Part shown: positions 16,779-58,198 of the stretch, piece by piece
How the letters are laid out: each line of letters starts with the position of its first letter
How positions within the stretch are numbered: position 1 is the stretch's first letter
Virus record (IMG/VR): IMGVR_UViG_3300042522_001179
Location: 1 to 64,000 of that record
Length of the DNA: 64,000 bases
Source of the DNA: a virus
Reading direction: 5' to 3' (one strand)
The notes under the pieces: generated by a model
Database searches by the model: none
Told to the model about the DNA's origin: nothing
What the model saw: only the letters and a program-made list of their open reading frames with translations
Program-made: the position numbers and the translations under genes

Positions 16779-17576
16779 ATGACCTATTTATCTTCCAAAA
16801 AAATCTACCCGGGTAACTGGGCAGAGCCTCTGAACGGTTGGTACAAGAACATTGATGCTTCTGCTGATGGCGTCAATGATGGTTCCAAGGGCGGCCCCAC
16901 TTCGGTGCTGGCTACCCCTGGCTACCGTTATTTCCAGCAGCGTGGTTACGTGGCCGTTACCGCCACCTCTGGCACTCCTGTTGCTACCGGCAACGTGATC
17001 ATTCCTTCGCCTTACCGCCAGGATGACACCCGTACCGACATCACTGGCATGGTGATCTCTGGTACCACCGTCCAGCCTTCTTTTGTGTATCGCACCGCCA
17101 TCTCCGTTGCTTCTGGCTGGGGTGATGGTCGCGTGGCTTCCGGTGTGTATGCCGCCACTGGTAACATCATCTCCTTCGGTCGCGACTCCAGCGGCCCCAC
17201 TGCCGCTTCTGGCGTTGGCGAAGGCGTGATTCAAGCCAACCTGACCTCCACTGTGTCTGGTGACGCCGCCACCAAGATTTACTTCGCTGGTGGTAACCAA
17301 GCCTTTGGTACCAATCCGTTCATCACTACTACCGGCGCTCCTGGCGTCTCCGGTGGTGTGTGCTACTACGCTGCTACCACTGGCGTCACTCTGAAAGTGT
17401 TTGCCAAAGGTGCTGCTAACGACACCTCTACTTCCGGTGGTTTCTACATCTCGACCGCTGATGCTGCTGCTGGCCGCACTGGTTATCTGGTTGTGGAAGT
17501 GTGCTACATCCAGCCTGATGATGCCCCTGGTTATGAGGACATCGATGGCTACCTGACTGGCCGCACTGTTAGCTGA
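16779..17576 (+). CDS. Probable capsid decoration or vertex protein, 265 aa
   Basis: ATG preceded by AGGAGA. A Gly/Thr/Ser/Val-rich, all-beta-type protein without charge clusters or membrane segments. It shares the same G/C-rich third-position codon bias as the major capsid gene just upstream, implying very high expression. Abundant beta-rich proteins encoded directly after the major capsid gene are commonly decoration or head-fibre proteins; this is inference from position, composition and codon bias. An imperfect terminator-like hairpin follows at 17590-17612. Confidence 0.65.
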   Translation: MTYLSSKKIYPGNWAEPLNGWYKNIDASADGVNDGSKGGPTSVLATPGYRYFQQRGYVAVTATSGTPVATGNVIIPSPYRQDDTRTDITGMVISGTTVQPSFVYRTAISVASGWGDGRVASGVYAATGNIISFGRDSSGPTAASGVGEGVIQANLTSTVSGDAATKIYFAGGNQAFGTNPFITTTGAPGVSGGVCYYAATTGVTLKVFAKGAANDTSTSGGFYISTADAAAGRTGYLVVEVCYIQPDDAPGYEDIDGYLTGRTVS

Positions 17577-24500: not shown

Positions 24501-27467
24501 ATGGCAACTTATAACACAACCACAAAAACCTGGACGCCTTTTTCTTACGACACAAATCAAAAAACAGACTACACTGCCGAAGCTTTTGTATCTCAGTACC
24601 CAGATAAAACAGCAGCTGATTTTGCGTCTACCTATCCGGCAGACAGACCAACCAACTTAGCAACCACGCAGAAGTTCTTTGTCAAGTTTAAAGATAACGG
24701 TAAAGTCGATGAAATAAAAATTCAAGACACGGATCCTGGTGAAAACTGGAAAAAATATGAATTAAGGGCGGGCAAGGAAATAGGTGATTATAATTTTGAA
24801 TTTCCAAATGGTGATAATGACAATCGCAAACAAGCATTAAAAGCTGCAAGAGATCAATTAGATACTAACAACACTACAAACAACAACAATGCTTCGGCAA
24901 ATGCTCAAGATATCACAAATCGCACAACTGCAGCAACTCAGTACAATGCGACACAACTTACAAATCGCAACAATGCAGCGGCACAGTTAAATGCTCAAAA
25001 TCAATTAACAAAAAACAAAAATACAGCCATTAATAATTTTAGCTCTTCGCTTATTTCATTAGCGTCTACTACTCAAGGTGGAGACTATATAAACAAACTA
25101 AAAGCTTTAGATGATAGCACTTTGCGAAGTGCCGGATTGACTGACGCAGAAATCTCAACTGTATTTAATGCAGCAAAAGGTTCTTTTGATACTTTTTATT
25201 TAAATGAAAAAGTGACTCCTTGGGACGCGGTTTCCCAGGGTGTTCAGCCTCCTACTGGTGGATTTAATGCGACTTATTATCAAACACAATACCCAGGCGC
25301 ATTAAGCGAATGGAATGCTGCACAAGCAGTGAATGTTAACGGGCGTGTTTTTAAAAACTTAGATATTACTGCTCGTTACGATCAAAACACTTATCTTTTG
25401 CAGCATTACACAAACGTAGGCAGGCACGCTGGATACCGTGGAAACGAGGCGTTGGAATCCCAACAAGTATCTAGTTATTCCGAAACACTTACTGATTACG
25501 AAAAACAAATATATAGAGATCAAGTTTTAGGTATTACCACGCAAGATGGGAAAGAGGTCATTGACCTTGATATGCCTGAGTATGACGAAGAAGGAAAGTT
25601 AATAAATGCACCAGATATAAATACTGGATTTGAGCAGGCACTAGGACAGTTGTTTGGCTCAGAAACAGCTAAGCAAGAAAAGAAACTTCAATTGCTTGCT
25701 CAAGATGTTTTGCAAGAGTCGATTAAAGAGCTTAAAAAAGCCAAACAAAAAGAAGCCGATTTAATGACGCTAAACAATCTACCTGGATATAGCGAAATTG
25801 CAAACATGCATACTACTCTTTCTAATTCACTTTTAGGTGACGCCTCTTTTGGTGGCATGCTTGGTTTCATTGATCCTAATAGAACAATGCAAAAAGGGCT
25901 TGAGCAAGATATTAAAAACCTTACTGGCACCTCCTCTAATTCAACAATTTACAACTGGCAAAAATGGTTTGACGATACGTTGACCAAACGGTATGAAGAA
26001 TTTGAGTTAGAAATGGCCAAGCGTACCCCAGAAGAAATTCAACAGTTCCAAGATCAAGCTAAAAAAGACCTGGAAGAATACAACGAAAAAGTCAAAAGTG
26101 ATCCCAGTGCAACAAAGCCTTTGCTTATTGAACAAGCTGAAAAATACAATTTAGACATAAACAATGTGGATCAATTTAAAGAATTGTTGTCGAAAACTGA
26201 TCAAGATTCGCAAAAACAATTTGTAACCAGTTTTATCAATGGCTACCTTAAGCCTCGTTTTGATCAATCAAAATCCATGGATGAGTTTATTAGTTACTTA
26301 GACGTAAAAGAAGAAGAGCAAAATATTTTTCAATCGCAATCTGTTATTAATAAATTAAAGCAAGTTGCAGAGCTTAGGAGTAATGCATTGCTTAGTTTTT
26401 ATAAGGCAGCTGAAGCTGCTAAAAAAAGTTTTGACGTTGATTTTTATTTGGATCCTGTAGGTAAATCTACAAAAGATTTGACGGTAGAGCAAAAATTAGT
26501 TTATGAAAAACAAAAAGATATTGTTGATTCAGATTTTGAAGCTGCCAAAAAAGGAACCAGTTCTAATGGAGTAAATTGGGCGACAGAAGCTTATCGCTAT
26601 GGTTACGAAGGTAACTACAAAACAGATGCAAAAGCGTTTGCTAAGTTACATTATCAAGTCCTTGGTTCAACTGGGCAGCTTAAAGATGCCGAAGGAAAAT
26701 CAATTGTTCTAGACCCAGCGGAAAATATTCTTAATTACAATGAGCTGCAAAATAAAATTTCAGAAATCACAAAAGAACTTGTTATACGTCAAGATTTGTA
26801 TGGAGACACTGCTTTTATGCAATTTGTTACGCCAGAAGAATTTGCAGATTCTGTCTTGGGATCTATTAGTCCAGAAGAAAACAAAGAAGAATGGGAAAAG
26901 ATTGTTAAGCAACTTGGGCTTGAGGGAGAACAGGCTACTGTTGACAACGTAAAACAATATTTAATTGATTCTTTTAGAACAGAAGAAGCACTTAAAATCC
27001 GAGAAGCCATTAAGTACTTAAACGAACAAAAACAAGCCTTGGATCAACAGACCCTTGGTGCGACTTACATTGAAAGAGAAGATGACGTAAAAGAAGCCAA
27101 TGCAGAACCCGAAACTCAGCTGTACCAAATTTTTCAATCTGCTGGTTACAAGGGGACAGAGGATGATTTTTATACAAACTTTATGCCCGATGTAGACAGA
27201 GAGGATCAAGCATTACTTGGCAAGGCTATGTCGGGAGGAAACTTGTTTACGTCTTTAAATCTTTCTGATCCTCTTAGTGCCTTTAATAGTATTGCAGGTT
27301 TAATGGACGAGCCAGATGAACCAACTGCAAAAAGTTCATCGACTAGCAATGCAAAATCTTCTTATTTTAATATGTTTAGTGGGGATGAAGACGAGTTTTT
27401 AACTCAATCAAAAAGCGCTCAATCTATCCTTGGTGAATTTACGTCAATGTTTAAAGGATTTAGCTGA
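24501..27467 (+). CDS. Very large virion-type protein, 988 aa
   Basis: Rich in Asn, Gln, Lys and Glu with long helical stretches, lacking hydrophobic membrane segments. Residues 125-180 form an Asn/Thr/Ala/Gln repeat. Near residues 250-320 is a small motif region with YYQTQYPGALSEW and HYTNVGRHAGYRGN. The remainder is mostly helical with coiled-coil potential. The size and position after tail genes and before lysozyme suggest an internal core or tape-measure-like protein, but no enzymatic or family signature is recognised. It is AT-rich compared with the capsid genes. Confidence 0.75.
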   Translation: MATYNTTTKTWTPFSYDTNQKTDYTAEAFVSQYPDKTAADFASTYPADRPTNLATTQKFFVKFKDNGKVDEIKIQDTDPGENWKKYELRAGKEIGDYNFEFPNGDNDNRKQALKAARDQLDTNNTTNNNNASANAQDITNRTTAATQYNATQLTNRNNAAAQLNAQNQLTKNKNTAINNFSSSLISLASTTQGGDYINKLKALDDSTLRSAGLTDAEISTVFNAAKGSFDTFYLNEKVTPWDAVSQGVQPPTGGFNATYYQTQYPGALSEWNAAQAVNVNGRVFKNLDITARYDQNTYLLQHYTNVGRHAGYRGNEALESQQVSSYSETLTDYEKQIYRDQVLGITTQDGKEVIDLDMPEYDEEGKLINAPDINTGFEQALGQLFGSETAKQEKKLQLLAQDVLQESIKELKKAKQKEADLMTLNNLPGYSEIANMHTTLSNSLLGDASFGGMLGFIDPNRTMQKGLEQDIKNLTGTSSNSTIYNWQKWFDDTLTKRYEEFELEMAKRTPEEIQQFQDQAKKDLEEYNEKVKSDPSATKPLLIEQAEKYNLDINNVDQFKELLSKTDQDSQKQFVTSFINGYLKPRFDQSKSMDEFISYLDVKEEEQNIFQSQSVINKLKQVAELRSNALLSFYKAAEAAKKSFDVDFYLDPVGKSTKDLTVEQKLVYEKQKDIVDSDFEAAKKGTSSNGVNWATEAYRYGYEGNYKTDAKAFAKLHYQVLGSTGQLKDAEGKSIVLDPAENILNYNELQNKISEITKELVIRQDLYGDTAFMQFVTPEEFADSVLGSISPEENKEEWEKIVKQLGLEGEQATVDNVKQYLIDSFRTEEALKIREAIKYLNEQKQALDQQTLGATYIEREDDVKEANAEPETQLYQIFQSAGYKGTEDDFYTNFMPDVDREDQALLGKAMSGGNLFTSLNLSDPLSAFNSIAGLMDEPDEPTAKSSSTSNAKSSYFNMFSGDEDEFLTQSKSAQSILGEFTSMFKGFS

Positions 27468-27739
27468 TGTCCGATAAAGCACGTAAAGCTGCTTCTGCAG
27501 CAAAAATACACAAAGATTCCATGGAATGCAACAAGCCCCGACACGACGTGCAAGGCGGTAAGAAATCTGTTGTGAAAGCATGTGAAGGTGGCCAAGAAAA
27601 AATTGTGCGCTTTGGTGACGCCAACATGGAAATTAAACGAGACAACCCAGAGCGCCGCAAGAACTTTCGCGCAAGACACAACTGCGACGAGCCCAAGAGC
27701 AAATTAACGGCTGGCTACTGGTCGTGCAAAGCCTGGTAA
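27467..27739 (+). CDS. Conserved small phage protein with Cys-rich C-terminus, 90 aa
   Basis: ATG overlaps the preceding stop. A basic protein whose middle (EKIVRFGDANMEI) and end (RHNCDEPKSK... YWSCKAW) form a pattern I associate with small proteins widespread in aquatic tailed phages; function unknown. Four cysteines may bind metal. It is probably a structural or assembly accessory co-translated with the 988-residue protein. Confidence 0.75.
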   Translation: MSDKARKAASAAKIHKDSMECNKPRHDVQGGKKSVVKACEGGQEKIVRFGDANMEIKRDNPERRKNFRARHNCDEPKSKLTAGYWSCKAW

Positions 27740-27775
27740 TTTGAGCTAGGCTGCTGACGTTGTTACCTCAACGCC

Positions 27776-27901
27776 ATGGCAAAACCCAAGTCAACCTCTT
27801 TGGTAAAAATTGAAGCCAAGCCCAAGCTCACCCGTCAAGGCGATGGCAAGCACTCCAAGCCCAGCCATGGACGCAAGTTGAGCAGGGGTCAGGGCAAGTA
27901 A
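27776..27901 (+). CDS. Tiny basic protein, 41 aa
   Basis: ATG at 27776 encodes 41 residues, almost all Lys, Pro, Ser, Gly and Arg, ending GRKLSRGQGK. It fills the gap between the Cys-rich protein and the lysozyme. Very short basic proteins with GQG ends recur in phage genomes and could bind nucleic acid. The basic, biased composition and tight fit support it as a gene; function unknown. Confidence 0.55.
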   Translation: MAKPKSTSLVKIEAKPKLTRQGDGKHSKPSHGRKLSRGQGK

Positions 27902-53878: not shown

Positions 53879-54073
53879 ATGGAAAAGAAAAAAGCTATTC
53901 CCCCCAAGAAAGCTGTGCCTCCCGCAAAAGGTAAAGCCGCTCCTCCCGTGAAAGGCAAGCCTGCTCCCCCTGTCAAAGGCAAAGGTGGCGCAACTGATAA
54001 GCAAGCGGAAGCCCGCGAAAAGTTTAAAGAGATGATCGCCAAGAAAAAAGCGGACGCTGCCAAAAAGAAATAA
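53879..54073 (+). CDS. Lys/Pro/Ala-rich basic protein, 64 aa
   Basis: ATG at 53879 (a GTG at 53870 is also in frame). The first half consists of Pro/Lys/Ala/Gly repeats (GKAAPPVKGKPAPPVKGKGG), the second of a Lys/Glu helix ending in Lys residues, a histone-H1-like or DNA-condensing composition. It is followed by the structured RNA region. Function unknown. Confidence 0.6.
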   Translation: MEKKKAIPPKKAVPPAKGKAAPPVKGKPAPPVKGKGGATDKQAEAREKFKEMIAKKKADAAKKK

Positions 54074-54083
54074 GGTATCGCGC

Positions 54084-54179
54084 TATACTTTCAGTGCTCA
54101 ATACACACGTCTCGTCCCGTAGGTATTGGCGGTAAGTAGTTAGTCTCAGATCTCGGCTTGAGCAACCGAGATTTTTTTG
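54084..54179 (+). ncRNA. Candidate small RNA with own promoter and terminator
   Basis: A TATACT box at 54084-54089, an imperfect CAATAC/GTATTG hairpin (54099-54104 with 54123-54128) and an intrinsic terminator (stem 54150-54156 with 54166-54172, then seven T residues) define a possible 80-90-base transcript. It could also be only the trailer of the upstream basic gene. No RNA family is recognised. Confidence 0.45.
54150..54179 (+). terminator. Rho-independent terminator
   Basis: ATCTCGG (54150-54156) pairs perfectly with CCGAGAT (54166-54172), followed by seven T residues. It ends transcripts from the upstream basic genes and abuts a promoter facing the structured RNA region. Confidence 0.9.
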
Positions 54180-54186
54180 TTATAAT
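54158..54186 (+). promoter_or_regulatory. Sigma70-type promoter for the structured RNA region
   Basis: TTGAGC at 54158-54163, a 17-base spacer and a perfect TATAAT at 54181-54186. The -35 lies in the loop of the terminator, so both signals share DNA. Transcription would start near 54193 and run into the structured RNA and tRNA-like elements. Confidence 0.7.
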
Positions 54187-54189
54187 TCT

Positions 54190-54435
54190 GAGTGATAGAG
54201 GCCAGGTCCCTGTGCGCGTTAGGCACATAGCCTAGAAGGCGACACACCTGGTCCATCACACAACCCATACTGCTTTGTTGGTATGGCGCAGCGCATGGAC
54301 CGGAAATTTCCAGTCGTTGCGTTTGCGTACAACACCCCTCATGCCTAGCTTGATAACGAGGACGGCTTTACACCGGGCGCACGGGCTTGCAGGCATCCTC
54401 ACTCAGTTATCAATGACGCACAAACCGAGGGGTCA
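54190..54435 (+). ncRNA. Structured non-coding region with competing stems and a pseudoknot
   Basis: No supported frame. Helices seen: GGCCAGGT with ACCTGGTC (54200-54207/54246-54253), enclosing TGTGC/GCACA and a small GCC/GGC hairpin; GGTCCAT with ATGGACC (54250-54256/54295-54301) enclosing CCATAC/GTATGG; CCCCTC with GAGGGG (54335-54340/54427-54432); inside it ATGCCT/AGGCAT (54341-54346/54391-54396) crosses GATAAC/GTTATC (54352-54357/54406-54411). The first two share bases and exclude each other. No named RNA family is recognised. Confidence 0.55.
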
Positions 54436-54437
54436 CT

Positions 54438-54508
54438 CAACCGGTAGTCCAGTGGCAGGACACCCCGACAAGGGAGTTAGATAGTTGGTTCGATTCCAAC
54501 GCGGTTGC
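54438..54508 (+). tRNA. tRNA-like element 1, degenerate anticodon arm (GAC candidate)
   Basis: Acceptor CAACCGG/GCGGTTG pairs 6 of 7, U8-A9 are in place, the D arm GTCC-AGTGGCA-GGAC is canonical and the T arm GTTGG-TTCGATT-CCAAC is perfect. The anticodon arm is short: CCC/GGG with a 6-base loop CGACAA, lacking U33. GAC (Val) would be the most likely anticodon. It may be a decayed or unusual tRNA. Confidence 0.5.
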
Positions 54509-54509
54509 T

Positions 54510-54584
54510 CGCCTGGTCCGAGACAATTGGATAGTACGGCTGCTGCGCTGCAGGGCGATGTAGGTTCGAATCCTACCCAGGTGC
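54510..54584 (+). tRNA. tRNA-like element 2, uncertain anticodon
   Basis: 75 bases, starting 2 bases after element 1. Acceptor CGCCTGG/CCAGGTG pairs over 7 bases with one G-T, and the T arm GTAGG-TTCGAAT-CCTAC is perfect. The D arm and anticodon arm are irregular: CTGC/GCAG with a 6-base loop TGCGCT, from which GCG could be read. No CCA is encoded. Assignment of an amino acid is unsafe. Confidence 0.5.
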
Positions 54585-54613
54585 TTTAGAGTGAGCAGAC
54601 TCAAGCAAATCAA

Positions 54614-55270
54614 ATGAGTTACCTCAATCACAACCTGCCTACGTTTACGTGTTACATCCGAAACGAGTTCCTATACAACCACAAACAAGGCCATGGCGAG
54701 GTGACGTTGTGCGATGTCCACTCAGTGGCCTCTCTGGAGAAGCGCGTCCCTTTATTTGAAGTCTTCCTGGAGAATGGTGTCAACTGGACAAGGCGTCCAA
54801 TCCACGCTCTCTGCTGGAAGCCAGGTGCCCCTAAGCCCGAATTAAATGAGTGCATGTGGTGGGATTGTTTCTCTCCGTATATCGATGTGCAGGTTAGGTC
54901 ACGCCTCTCAAATTTACGTGCGCAGCTGATCAACTTCAAAGGGGAGAAGAAAGGCGGCATCTACATGTTCACCCTTGACTGGTCATGGGAATCTAAATCA
55001 ACTCTTAATACAAACTTCAGCGAAACACCTGAGCACAAGTGTGCGCATTTCTTCCGGATGGATGATGGCAACTTCTATGCATATCCCAATAACCGAGTCA
55101 TTTGGTACGACGACGCCTGGCTTAAGAACCGTATTGAAAAAAACCCTGGCTACGAGATTGACTTGACTGAGTACAGCGTAGAGAACTCACGGATGATTGA
55201 GACGTCCAACCATTTTATATACGAGACAACAGCCACAGGTGAACAGGATTTACAGTTAGTTTTGGAATAG
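54614..55270 (+). CDS. Hypothetical protein, 218 aa
   Basis: ATG at 54614, 29 bases after tRNA-like element 2. A mixed alpha/beta protein rich in Trp, Asn, His and Cys residues (CMWWDCFSPYIDVQ, FTLDWSWES, HFFRMDDGNFYAYPNNRV), without membrane segments. Its composition is natural but no domain is recognised. Transcription from the 54181 promoter would reach it. Confidence 0.72.
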   Translation: MSYLNHNLPTFTCYIRNEFLYNHKQGHGEVTLCDVHSVASLEKRVPLFEVFLENGVNWTRRPIHALCWKPGAPKPELNECMWWDCFSPYIDVQVRSRLSNLRAQLINFKGEKKGGIYMFTLDWSWESKSTLNTNFSETPEHKCAHFFRMDDGNFYAYPNNRVIWYDDAWLKNRIEKNPGYEIDLTEYSVENSRMIETSNHFIYETTATGEQDLQLVLE

Positions 55271-55285
55271 TAGTACCTGGCTTTG

Positions 55286-55534
55286 GTGCCAACTTCCAAA
55301 GAAAAACTCCAGCGCAATCGGCAAAAGTTTCTTGAGTACAAGAAGACTTTAAATTGCCAGCACTGTGGGTTGAATGATCATCGTGTCCTTGAGTTCCACC
55401 ACGTTGGTGATAAGGACCATAACATATCAAATATGGTTAATCACGGATACGGCTGGCGCCGCATCGAAGAGGAAATAAAGAAATGTATTCCTCTATGCTG
55501 CAACTGCCATAGGTTAGAACACTGGGTTAATTAA
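55286..55534 (+). CDS. HNH endonuclease, 82 aa
   Basis: GTG at 55286 (a TTG at 55283 is also possible). CQHCGLNDHRVLEFHHVGDKD holds the first zinc knuckle and catalytic HH, WRRIEEEIKKCIPLCCNCHRLEH the second knuckle and final His. This is a compact HNH nuclease. It ends convergent with the 690-residue minus-strand gene, overlapping by 4 bases. A homing or free-standing role is likely, as with the HNH proteins at 24129 and 43596. Confidence 0.85.
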   Translation: MPTSKEKLQRNRQKFLEYKKTLNCQHCGLNDHRVLEFHHVGDKDHNISNMVNHGYGWRRIEEEIKKCIPLCCNCHRLEHWVN

Positions 55535-57603: not shown

Positions 57604-58157
57604 TAACCGTTCCGCAATGTAGCTTTAACAAACCAAGCAGCCTTAAAAGCTTGACCACACAGCTCAGCCATATAGTTTTGAATATCAATGGCCCCTACCT
57701 TGGCGGCAATAGGCTCAAGCTTCTTGGCTTTCATGCCAAGCTCCTCAAGGTTCTTGTAGTACACACCAAGCATGTCAGTGCCCTTGTAGGAAGTTACAGT
57801 TTGGATAGGAGGAGCTGCATCTTTAAGCCCACTACCACACATAGGAAGTAAATAATCCATGCTGCGAATAAACTCAGCAAGGGTATCAAACTGTTCAAGG
57901 TGCGTTTCATATTGATCTTTCAGGAATGCGTGGACGCCAAGGAAGTTACCGCCCTCGTAGTTCAGGTGGATAAGATGTGACTGTGTCTCCAGCTCCTTGA
58001 GGTAAGCACACAGAGAGATGCATTGCTGGATGAATGCACCTACATCACCACCAGCCTTGGACTTGGCAGGAGCTTTGGGTTTGTCCTGGGGCTGAGGAAC
58101 GGGTTGAACCTGAGGGGTTTCAGTCACCTGGTACTGCTGAGGGGCAGGGGTATACAT
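57603..58157 (-). CDS. dps: Dps-like ferritin (mini-ferritin), 184 aa
   Basis: ATG 58157 chosen over a GTG at 58163. After a disordered Pro/Gln-rich 45-residue N-terminus comes a four-helix ferritin-like region. The Dps ferroxidase set is complete: His64 and His76 (HLNYEGGNFLGVH), Asp91 and Glu95 (QFDTLAEF), with the exact 12-, 15- and 4-residue spacings of bacterial Dps. Dps binds DNA and stores iron while detoxifying peroxide. In a phage it could protect DNA from oxidative damage in infected, light-exposed cells. The C-terminus is longer than in most Dps proteins. Confidence 0.85.
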   Translation of the reverse strand: MYTPAPQQYQVTETPQVQPVPQPQDKPKAPAKSKAGGDVGAFIQQCISLCAYLKELETQSHLIHLNYEGGNFLGVHAFLKDQYETHLEQFDTLAEFIRSMDYLLPMCGSGLKDAAPPIQTVTSYKGTDMLGVYYKNLEELGMKAKKLEPIAAKVGAIDIQNYMAELCGQAFKAAWFVKATLRNG

Positions 58158-58198
58158 AGTCACATGGCAATAGTACTAGTTTATCAGTTATTAACGCC

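Follow-up and report, generated by a model that had tools for sequence, protein, structure and literature searches.

A non-coding RNA island in an S-EIV1-like cyanophage: an abiF-class RNA joined to tRNA-like RNAs as a candidate RNA-only counter-defence

AbiF (Abi_2) is a HEPN RNase toxin of abortive infection and has been reported as a family ancestral to Cas13. According to the accessible parts of the articles concerned, an abiF-motif RNA neutralises AbiF through direct binding, in cis as well as in trans (PMC12373285), and nucleotides in a single-stranded bulge of this RNA are described as inhibiting the RNase (reviewed in PMC12737573). For other phage RNAs, the available text describes comparable roles. 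Phage PhiTE defeats ToxIN by means of pseudo-ToxI, an RNA mimic of ToxI (PMC3475682), RNA anti-CRISPRs (Racrs) are solitary phage RNA units mimicking host immune RNA (PMC10651486), and phage T6 has an anti-Septu locus in which a counter-defence RNA, tRNA-Tyr, lies in a tRNA locus beside the homing endonuclease SegB (PMC13096335). An abiF sRNA has been noted as a conserved motif in a cyanophage, S-CREM1, where it is a standard 37-nt form matching at 51.6 bits; the accessible part of that article connects it neither with AbiF counter-defence nor with tRNA-like RNAs (PMC9964418). In the open-licence literature, no report was found of toxin-less phage abiF RNAs as counter-defence, of abiF RNAs fused to tRNA-like RNAs, of an enlarged abiF form, or of the elements named E1 and TLS-A below.

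The DNA studied here, called the window, comprises 64,000 of the 64,182 bases of an IMG/VR record (IMGVR_UViG_3300042522_001179) that represents an S-EIV1-like cyanophage. At the locus of interest, the nearest isolate in the phage collection is Synechococcus phage S-EIV1, which covers 43% of a 761-base query at 81.7% identity. The flanking ORFs end at 54073 and start at 54614; in the stretch that separates them only short, unremarkable frames are present and there is no convincing gene, which agrees with an initial annotation, made from the letters alone, of about 500 bases without a protein gene. Its coordinates, 54084 to 54600, were slightly off, as the conserved unit runs from about 54148 to 54584. 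This island consists of its own terminator and promoter and four structured elements, arranged on the plus strand in the order terminator hairpin/promoter (54148 to 54186), E1, a spacer with hairpins, E2, TLS-A and TLS-B. By description, not by sequence, it may resemble the T4 tRNA cluster with its stable non-tRNA RNAs C and D.

The island opens with an intrinsic-terminator-type hairpin, AGATCTCGG-CTTGAGCAA-CCGAGATTT, followed by a T run (54148 to 54178, plus strand). It was missed by a terminator scan because its loop measures 9 nt and the limit of the scan is 8. The loop contains the −35 hexamer of a sigma70-type promoter with an extended −10, TTGAGC-17-TATAAT (54158 to 54186, plus strand; 10 of 12 matches), from which transcription is predicted to start near 54193, at the first bases of E1. 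The number of such promoter matches, 2 found against 1.9 expected, is at chance level, but the site recurs beside the terminator-type hairpin in relatives, which supports the promoter proposed at the outset. The same arrangement occurs with changed stem letters in S-EIV1 (L002), L006, L009-L012, L018, L096 and L435; the stem changes on both of its sides among relatives and the −10 hexamer is kept.

The core of the island (54188 to 54440, 253 nt) has a predicted folding energy of −96.9 kcal/mol (z −3.90), and none of 200 shuffled sequences does as well. By energy alone TLS-A (z −1.43), TLS-B (z −0.64) and the promoter stretch (z −1.81) do not stand out. The conclusion that the RNA structure exceeds chance is drawn from the compensatory changes among relatives, not from the energy of every part. 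Covariation scores, read against shuffles that ignore kinship among the sequences (a warning given by the tool), were 0.360 versus 0.145 ± 0.018 for the whole structure of E1 (22 sequences), 0.173 versus 0.070 ± 0.009 for E2 (20 sequences), 0.463 versus 0.153 ± 0.012 for TLS-A (29 sequences) and 0.493 versus 0.237 ± 0.027 for TLS-B (14 sequences). Sliding the partner columns by 1 to 3 positions destroyed the signal in all four alignments. The initial annotation had named in advance the lack of compensatory changes across relatives as the outcome that would count against it; such changes are abundant, its helices are real in E1, E2, TLS-A and TLS-B, and its proposal of a novel structured phage RNA with promoter, pseudoknot and tRNA-like ends is supported. 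Rfam at its own cut-offs gave no match in the whole window. At E 10 two sub-threshold matches appeared in the island region, mir-370 and tRNA-Sec, both at chance level.

Sequence comparison places E2 (54333 to 54433, plus strand) in the abiF RNA class (RF03085, the RNA antitoxin of AbiF/Abi_2 toxins), and here the earlier statement that no known RNA class is present was wrong. The evidence comes from a model, R1, and from pair counts on an alignment, A2. R1 was built from 15 related sequences, with the window and the S-EIV1 type kept out; it finds E2 at exactly 54333 to 54433 with 43.7 bits (E 1.2e-11; next best match in the window, E 0.15) and also recovers E2 of S-EIV1 (47.3 bits) and four further loci of that type. 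The Rfam model RF03085 (gathering score 37 bits) gives no match to E2 of the window even at E 10, most likely because the apical loop is enlarged. The core consists of P1 (54335-54340 with 54427-54432), P2 (54342-54344 with 54418-54420) and the CAAA strand (54421-54424), and the inserted apical part of P3 (54350-54357 with 54406-54413), P4 (54358-54362 with 54396-54400) and P5 (54373-54375 with 54382-54384). With RF03085, E2 shares P1, the one-base bulge, P2, the 3′ CAAA-Y strand and the U that follows. It differs in having no toxin gene, a far larger apical domain and a connection to tRNA-like RNA, and in falling below Rfam detection. In A2, which holds 20 of the 21 distinct E2 sequences (L012 was left out), 91.9% of the cells are paired and 13 of 25 pairs show double changes; P1 is paired in 92.4% and P2 in 100% of cells, both with double changes, so that the fold of the family is present together with its 3′ CAAA strand.

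The 11-nt abiF loop, CUCUCAACGAU, is lacking in E2 and replaced by YUAGCU and AUGAY flanking a helix. The insert lies between these two motifs in all inserted forms except that of L018. From one insert type to another, the first helix of the insert shows covariation (columns 19-22 with 77-80). Standard forms occur as well: among 18 related loci, Rfam finds RF03085 in S-SZBM1 (L005, 55.7 bits) and in two other phage contigs, with E2 in the short form ACCCCC-UAAGCCUCUCAACGAUGCUCAAACCU-GGGGGU. In the position corresponding to E2, L011 has a 37-nt short form (52.2 bits, above the Rfam cut-off of 37), and L018 (28.4 bits) and L125 (23.8 bits) have intermediates with small apical inserts. Apical enlargement is also a feature of some bacterial AbiF loci. 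Of 11 AbiF loci on plasmids, six have an RF03085 match (E 2 or better) immediately 5′ of the gene; four of these six have a longer apical loop, and one scores above and five below the Rfam cut-off. This cut-off hides enlarged-loop abiF RNAs, those of bacterial AbiF genes included. Pfam Abi_2 was confirmed in all four proteins tested from the RF03085-bearing plasmid loci. One of the longer-loop matches (29.7 bits) belongs to the cyanobacterium Synechocystis PCC 6714, whose AbiF also matches 8VZ6, a solved structure of the Abi family (E 7.4e-52). In the sequences searched, Synechocystis PCC 6714 and Synechococcus elongatus IITB6 are the only two cyanobacterial strains with AbiF, which they have on plasmids; the IITB6 locus gives no Rfam abiF match, and a similar hairpin can be drawn there by eye.

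As to the toxin itself, no Abi_2 gene was found in 12 phage records, some of them fragments, among which are those of the window, S-EIV1, S-RIM8, S-PM2 and S-SZBM1; the toxin gene that accompanies the RNA in a type III toxin-antitoxin system is thus missing in 12 of 12. Viral and cellular abiF sites (the latter loci L260-L379) were then compared, both fetched by exact matches to the same 21-base motif. An HMM made from 7 genome and 11 plasmid AbiF proteins detects the toxin no more than 3 kb away from 2 of the 120 viral sites listed (97 without, 21 not evaluable; 2 of 99 evaluable) and from 69 of the 125 cellular sites listed (40 without, 16 not evaluable; 69 of 109 evaluable). With similar flanks grouped, AbiF is nearby in 2 of 66 evaluable viral clusters versus 38 of 69 cellular ones (p 3e-12, among the matches listed). 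A lone abiF motif is no proof of counter-defence, since 40 of the 109 evaluable cellular motifs listed have no detectable AbiF within 3 kb either.

Viral abiF RNAs differ from cellular ones in their connection to tRNAs too. At 48 of the 120 viral sites listed a tRNA is called no more than 300 nt away, in every case on the strand of the motif; the corresponding figures are 9.0% for random positions in these loci and 1 of 125 for the cellular sites listed. When an acceptor stem plus T arm was searched for, a tRNA or tRNA-like structure (TLS) was found directly 3′ of the abiF RNA at 30 of 113 viral and 0 of 117 cellular sites listed (random positions, 1.0%), and in 27 of these 30 it begins 12-14 nt after CAAA. 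The window has the same short linker, as TLS-A starts 13 nt after the CAAA of E2. The 3′ element is either an ordinary tRNA (L182, L235, L237) or an RNA without an ordinary anticodon loop, and common to all is the acceptor/T-arm body. This body is what RNase P and 3′-processing enzymes recognise. A role of the tRNA-like parts in processing or stability is suggested by its being their common part. L172, L179 and L210 have tRNA-like RNAs of 48-49 nt just 3′ of abiF, with an acceptor and a T arm and no room for a full anticodon arm.

The toxin counts and the coupling also bear on the idea that E2 is an orphan antitoxin, either the relic of a phage-borne AbiF system that has lost its toxin or a guard against co-infecting phages or prophages that bear AbiF. 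AbiF indeed occurs on prophages (PMC12373285, accessible part), and the two viral sites with AbiF nearby, among the 99 evaluable ones listed, fit such an origin. A relic would be expected to decay, yet E2 shows compensatory changes, and its recurrent coupling to tRNA-like RNAs has no counterpart at the 117 cellular sites listed. The co-infection version amounts to a mechanistically identical decoy. We regard the orphan antitoxin as improbable.

TLS-A (54438 to 54508, plus strand), defined by a 29-sequence alignment, a second model (R2) and a two-base anticodon reported by ARAGORN, has intact D and T arms, whose loops are canonical. The anticodon arm is replaced by a 5-bp stem with a bulged A and a GACAA pentaloop; in relatives the pentaloop is GACAA or GAUAA, and a seven-base anticodon loop is not formed. 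Its loop may resemble the P22 boxB loop. The alignment, A3, is a chosen set of 29 TLS-A copies, with 94.1% of cells paired and double changes at 13 of 21 pairs; the acceptor, D and T arms all form, the seventh acceptor pair being unpaired in 27 of 29 sequences. While the stem varies from CCC/GGG to GTG/CAC or GCA/TGC, the GACAA loop and the bulged A are kept. Conservation of letters in TLS-A is largely imposed by the search pattern. Rows free of this pattern are L022, fetched by protein, and L144 and L255, fetched by the abiF motif; the likewise abiF-fetched L146, L183 and L202 have the same GACAA arm. R2 scores TLS-A of the window at 88.1 bits, a value that is not independent because the window is among its rows. 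On 80 of the 120 viral abiF loci listed, R2 gave at least 80 bits in four, most other matches looking like ordinary tRNAs.

The only Rfam tRNA match to TLS-A is tRNA-Sec (16.9 bits, cut-off 47). A derivation from tRNA-Glu was considered and rejected, as no isotype is clearly closest, and the apparent best matches, 'tRNA-Leu(caa)', 'His(atg)' and 'Cys(aca)', seem to be TLS-A copies that were misread. ARAGORN reports 40 two-base 'ca' tRNAs on the viral loci. Phage tRNA counts may be inflated by misread TLS-A copies. In the open-licence literature, TLS-A is apparently an undescribed RNA family.

TLS-B (54510 to 54584, plus strand) is a second tRNA-like RNA with a non-canonical middle. In alignment A7 (14 sequences), its acceptor and T stems are paired in 100% of 168 cells, with both-sided changes at 7 of 12 pairs. 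ARAGORN reports no gene here, TLS-A being its only call in the island, and no clear seven-base loop is seen by eye. The two tRNA-like elements described initially are therefore real and covary in relatives. Neither is a plausible decoding tRNA, because TLS-A has no seven-base anticodon loop and TLS-B no recognisable one. The suggestion of a processed tRNA precursor is borne out only in part, as far as the acceptor and T arms of both go. The missing canonical loop, together with the lack of annotation of TLS-A in S-RIM8, S-PM2 and S-SZBM1, where it is present, could indicate decayed, functionless tRNA genes. The extent of pairing in TLS-A and TLS-B and the 13 double-change pairs of TLS-A, whose arm changes with GACAA and the bulged A fixed, make this extremely unlikely.

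E1 (54191 to 54259, plus strand; alignment A5, 22 sequences) has the form GATAGAGG-N6-CYCTG...N6′-TCCATC. Its helices are P0 (54193-54196 with 54255-54258), S1 (54197-54200 with 54208-54211) and S2 (54202-54207 with 54246-54251). S1 and S2 cross in an H-type arrangement, and E1 is predicted to fold as an H-type pseudoknot. The 6-bp S2 is strongly supported, with 99.2% of cells paired and both-sided changes at five of six pairs. S1 is weakly supported: its strands AGAG/CYCU are almost invariant in A5 and pair 9-19 fails in 15 of 22 sequences. The letters of S1 were part of the search pattern and S2 lay outside it. L106 was left out of the alignment because its coordinates were wrong and pointed to a tRNA, L020 and L139 because their 3′ ends were misaligned; in the last two S2 is kept, by eye, as TGCAGT/ACTGCA. 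Of the crossing pairs that could be located, the one in E1 is a conserved candidate pseudoknot; the pair CATGCCT/AGGCATC in E2 was rejected, as S-EIV1 has lost it. By inspection, the third loop of E1 also contains a hairpin, TTAGGC-ACATA-GCCTAG (54219 to 54235, plus strand), that resembles M4; similar hairpins are seen, again by inspection, in other phages, where they are part of the tRNA-like RNAs downstream of abiF. The spacer between E1 and E2 (54260 to 54332) holds two more hairpins, ACCCATAC...GTATGG and GGACCGGAAATTTCC..., and a GGCCGGAAATTCC relative is present in L125.

The 5′ motif of E1 brought up 113 new viral loci, of which 76 hold the S2 partner and the 3′ motif as well, compared with a mean of 14.2 when six-mers were dealt anew and 0.2 when the downstream sequence was shuffled. 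E1 is thus a widespread RNA family (at least 76 viral contigs), apparently undescribed in the open-licence literature. No Rfam antitoxin match to E1 was obtained in the window or in 18 related loci, several of which have E1. A toxin partner was sought in the 76 loci without success: what recurs beside E1 is HNH endonucleases and proteins of unknown function, with no common toxin recognised. A tRNA lies within 300 nt of E1 in 59 of the 76 loci, all 59 on the same strand (random positions, 27.6%). This proximity, the tRNA-like ends and the promoter-like site of the island's own are what would be expected of a processing or stability scaffold of the tRNA-cluster transcript, whose elements guide RNase P, E or III and protect ends, with the abiF shape of E2 due to descent only. 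Processing alone would not require the abiF core (NGC...GCN-CAAA, P1 and P2), which persists in widely differing phages even as the apical loop is exchanged, and ordinary tRNAs need no such linkers. We consider the scaffold unlikely, albeit the most serious of the alternatives.

The neighbourhood of the island was considered as well. The next gene, PHROG 3704 (annotated ferredoxin; 54614 to 55270, plus strand), is a neighbour whose position does not by itself imply regulation. The island lies upstream of it on the same strand, and the related phages L007-L012 keep the same downstream gene beside E1 or E2, as would be expected of a cis-regulatory leader of this gene and its neighbours. Such a function is very unlikely: E1, the abiF-class RNA and TLS-A precede many unrelated genes and also sit between tRNAs, and two tRNA-like elements intervene before the gene. 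A small HNH endonuclease follows at 55283 to 55534 (plus strand), with a counterpart in S-EIV1 at 16917-17153; in 13 of the 76 loci with E1, a member of this enzyme family is encoded no more than 600 nt from E1. A ferritin-like protein is encoded at 57606 to 58163 on the minus strand (PF00210, 41.1 bits), and a ferritin-like gene is also present close to the RNA island of S-EIV1.

The best explanation, to which we assign a probability of roughly 55%, is that the island is an RNA-only counter-defence in which E2 neutralises host AbiF in trans and the tRNA-like ends serve as processing and stability modules. It is favoured by the abiF homology, the lack of a toxin in the phages and a tRNA/TLS coupling that is absent from the cellular sites listed, and supported by the published neutralisation of AbiF in trans and the ToxI mimic of PhiTE. 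E2 most likely acts like the RNA antitoxin whose fold it has. During infection it would bind and inhibit the host AbiF in trans, standing in for the host's own antitoxin RNA, so that abortive infection is prevented; RNA from a lytic phage would keep AbiF silent once the host antitoxin runs out. The tRNA-like parts would let host RNase P and 3′-trimming enzymes excise and protect the RNAs, processing giving E2 a defined 3′ end. In the least certain step, E1 may act as a further decoy for other RNA-controlled or tRNA-directed host toxins, as may perhaps TLS-A, whose GACAA arm has no anticodon. What we infer from the sequences is that E2 would bind and inhibit AbiF, that the RNAs would be processed and that the phage would profit, along with any part played by E1 and TLS-B.

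As far as the available text of the respective articles goes, the closest precedent is the PhiTE pseudo-ToxI, likewise a phage RNA that mimics a type III antitoxin and escapes abortive infection. It concerns another toxin system and RNA, consists of repeats instead of a single unit, and is known from experiment, E2 from sequence (PMC3475682). S-CREM1 shares with the window an abiF RNA in a cyanophage, in the standard instead of the enlarged form (PMC9964418). Racrs are, as E2 would be, solitary phage mimics of host immune RNA, their models being CRISPR repeats and not antitoxins (PMC10651486). The T6 locus has a true tRNA and a GIY-YIG enzyme where the island has tRNA-like RNAs and an HNH enzyme (PMC13096335).

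Besides the lack of an Rfam match to E2, the lone cellular motifs and the finding of cyanobacterial AbiF on plasmids of two strains only, one of them without an Rfam abiF match, three further points weigh against counter-defence by E2. Firstly, the large apical domain of E2 could change or abolish toxin binding. Secondly, the abiF antitoxin of C. difficile has two units and the window has one. Thirdly, lactococcal phage sk1, in which a region is reported to protect against AbiF, was tried as a precedent and has no abiF motif by either model. Apart from this, sk1 (L504) has about 500 nt without annotated genes in its middle transcript (27380-27890), where Rfam reports two tRNAs, at 55.9 and 39.9 bits, neither of which is annotated.

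Much of the non-coding sequence in phage tRNA clusters lacks an explanation; if the counter-defence reading is true, some of it would be RNA counter-defence with a named target, AbiF, tRNA-like RNAs without anticodons would gain a role, and a virus would disarm a host defence by RNA, not by protein. Tentatively, and with less confidence than for the island itself, phage tRNA clusters might double as RNA-only anti-defence islands of exchangeable modules, each against a different RNA-controlled or tRNA-directed toxin, cut free by RNase P at tRNA-like junctions of fixed position and spreading with small HNH endonucleases. In this tentative joint proposal, the modules would be mimics of abiF RNA whose apical domain has been rebuilt, the E1 pseudoknot family, and tRNA-like RNAs with a GNR(N)A-type pentaloop replacing the anticodon.

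Other modules were seen between tRNAs in such clusters. One of these, M3, in L003 (about 1888-1940), L105 and L108, is built of a variable stem, TTTGCG, a short helix with a AAAGATAAA loop, AATGCCG and a stem, and has no Rfam match at gathering scores in these three loci. M4, of the type TAGTCG-YTAKGC-NGATA-GCMTAG-AAAGACG, occurs in L005 (about 1888-1940), L091, L105, L124 and L129; its hairpin type is the one shared with E1 of the window and the tRNA-like RNAs after abiF. Lastly, the cyanophage-type tRNA cluster of L086 contains a cyano_tmRNA match (1705-1955, 116.6 bits) and a manA RNA (2452-2659, 100.2 bits), with TLS-A located between them.
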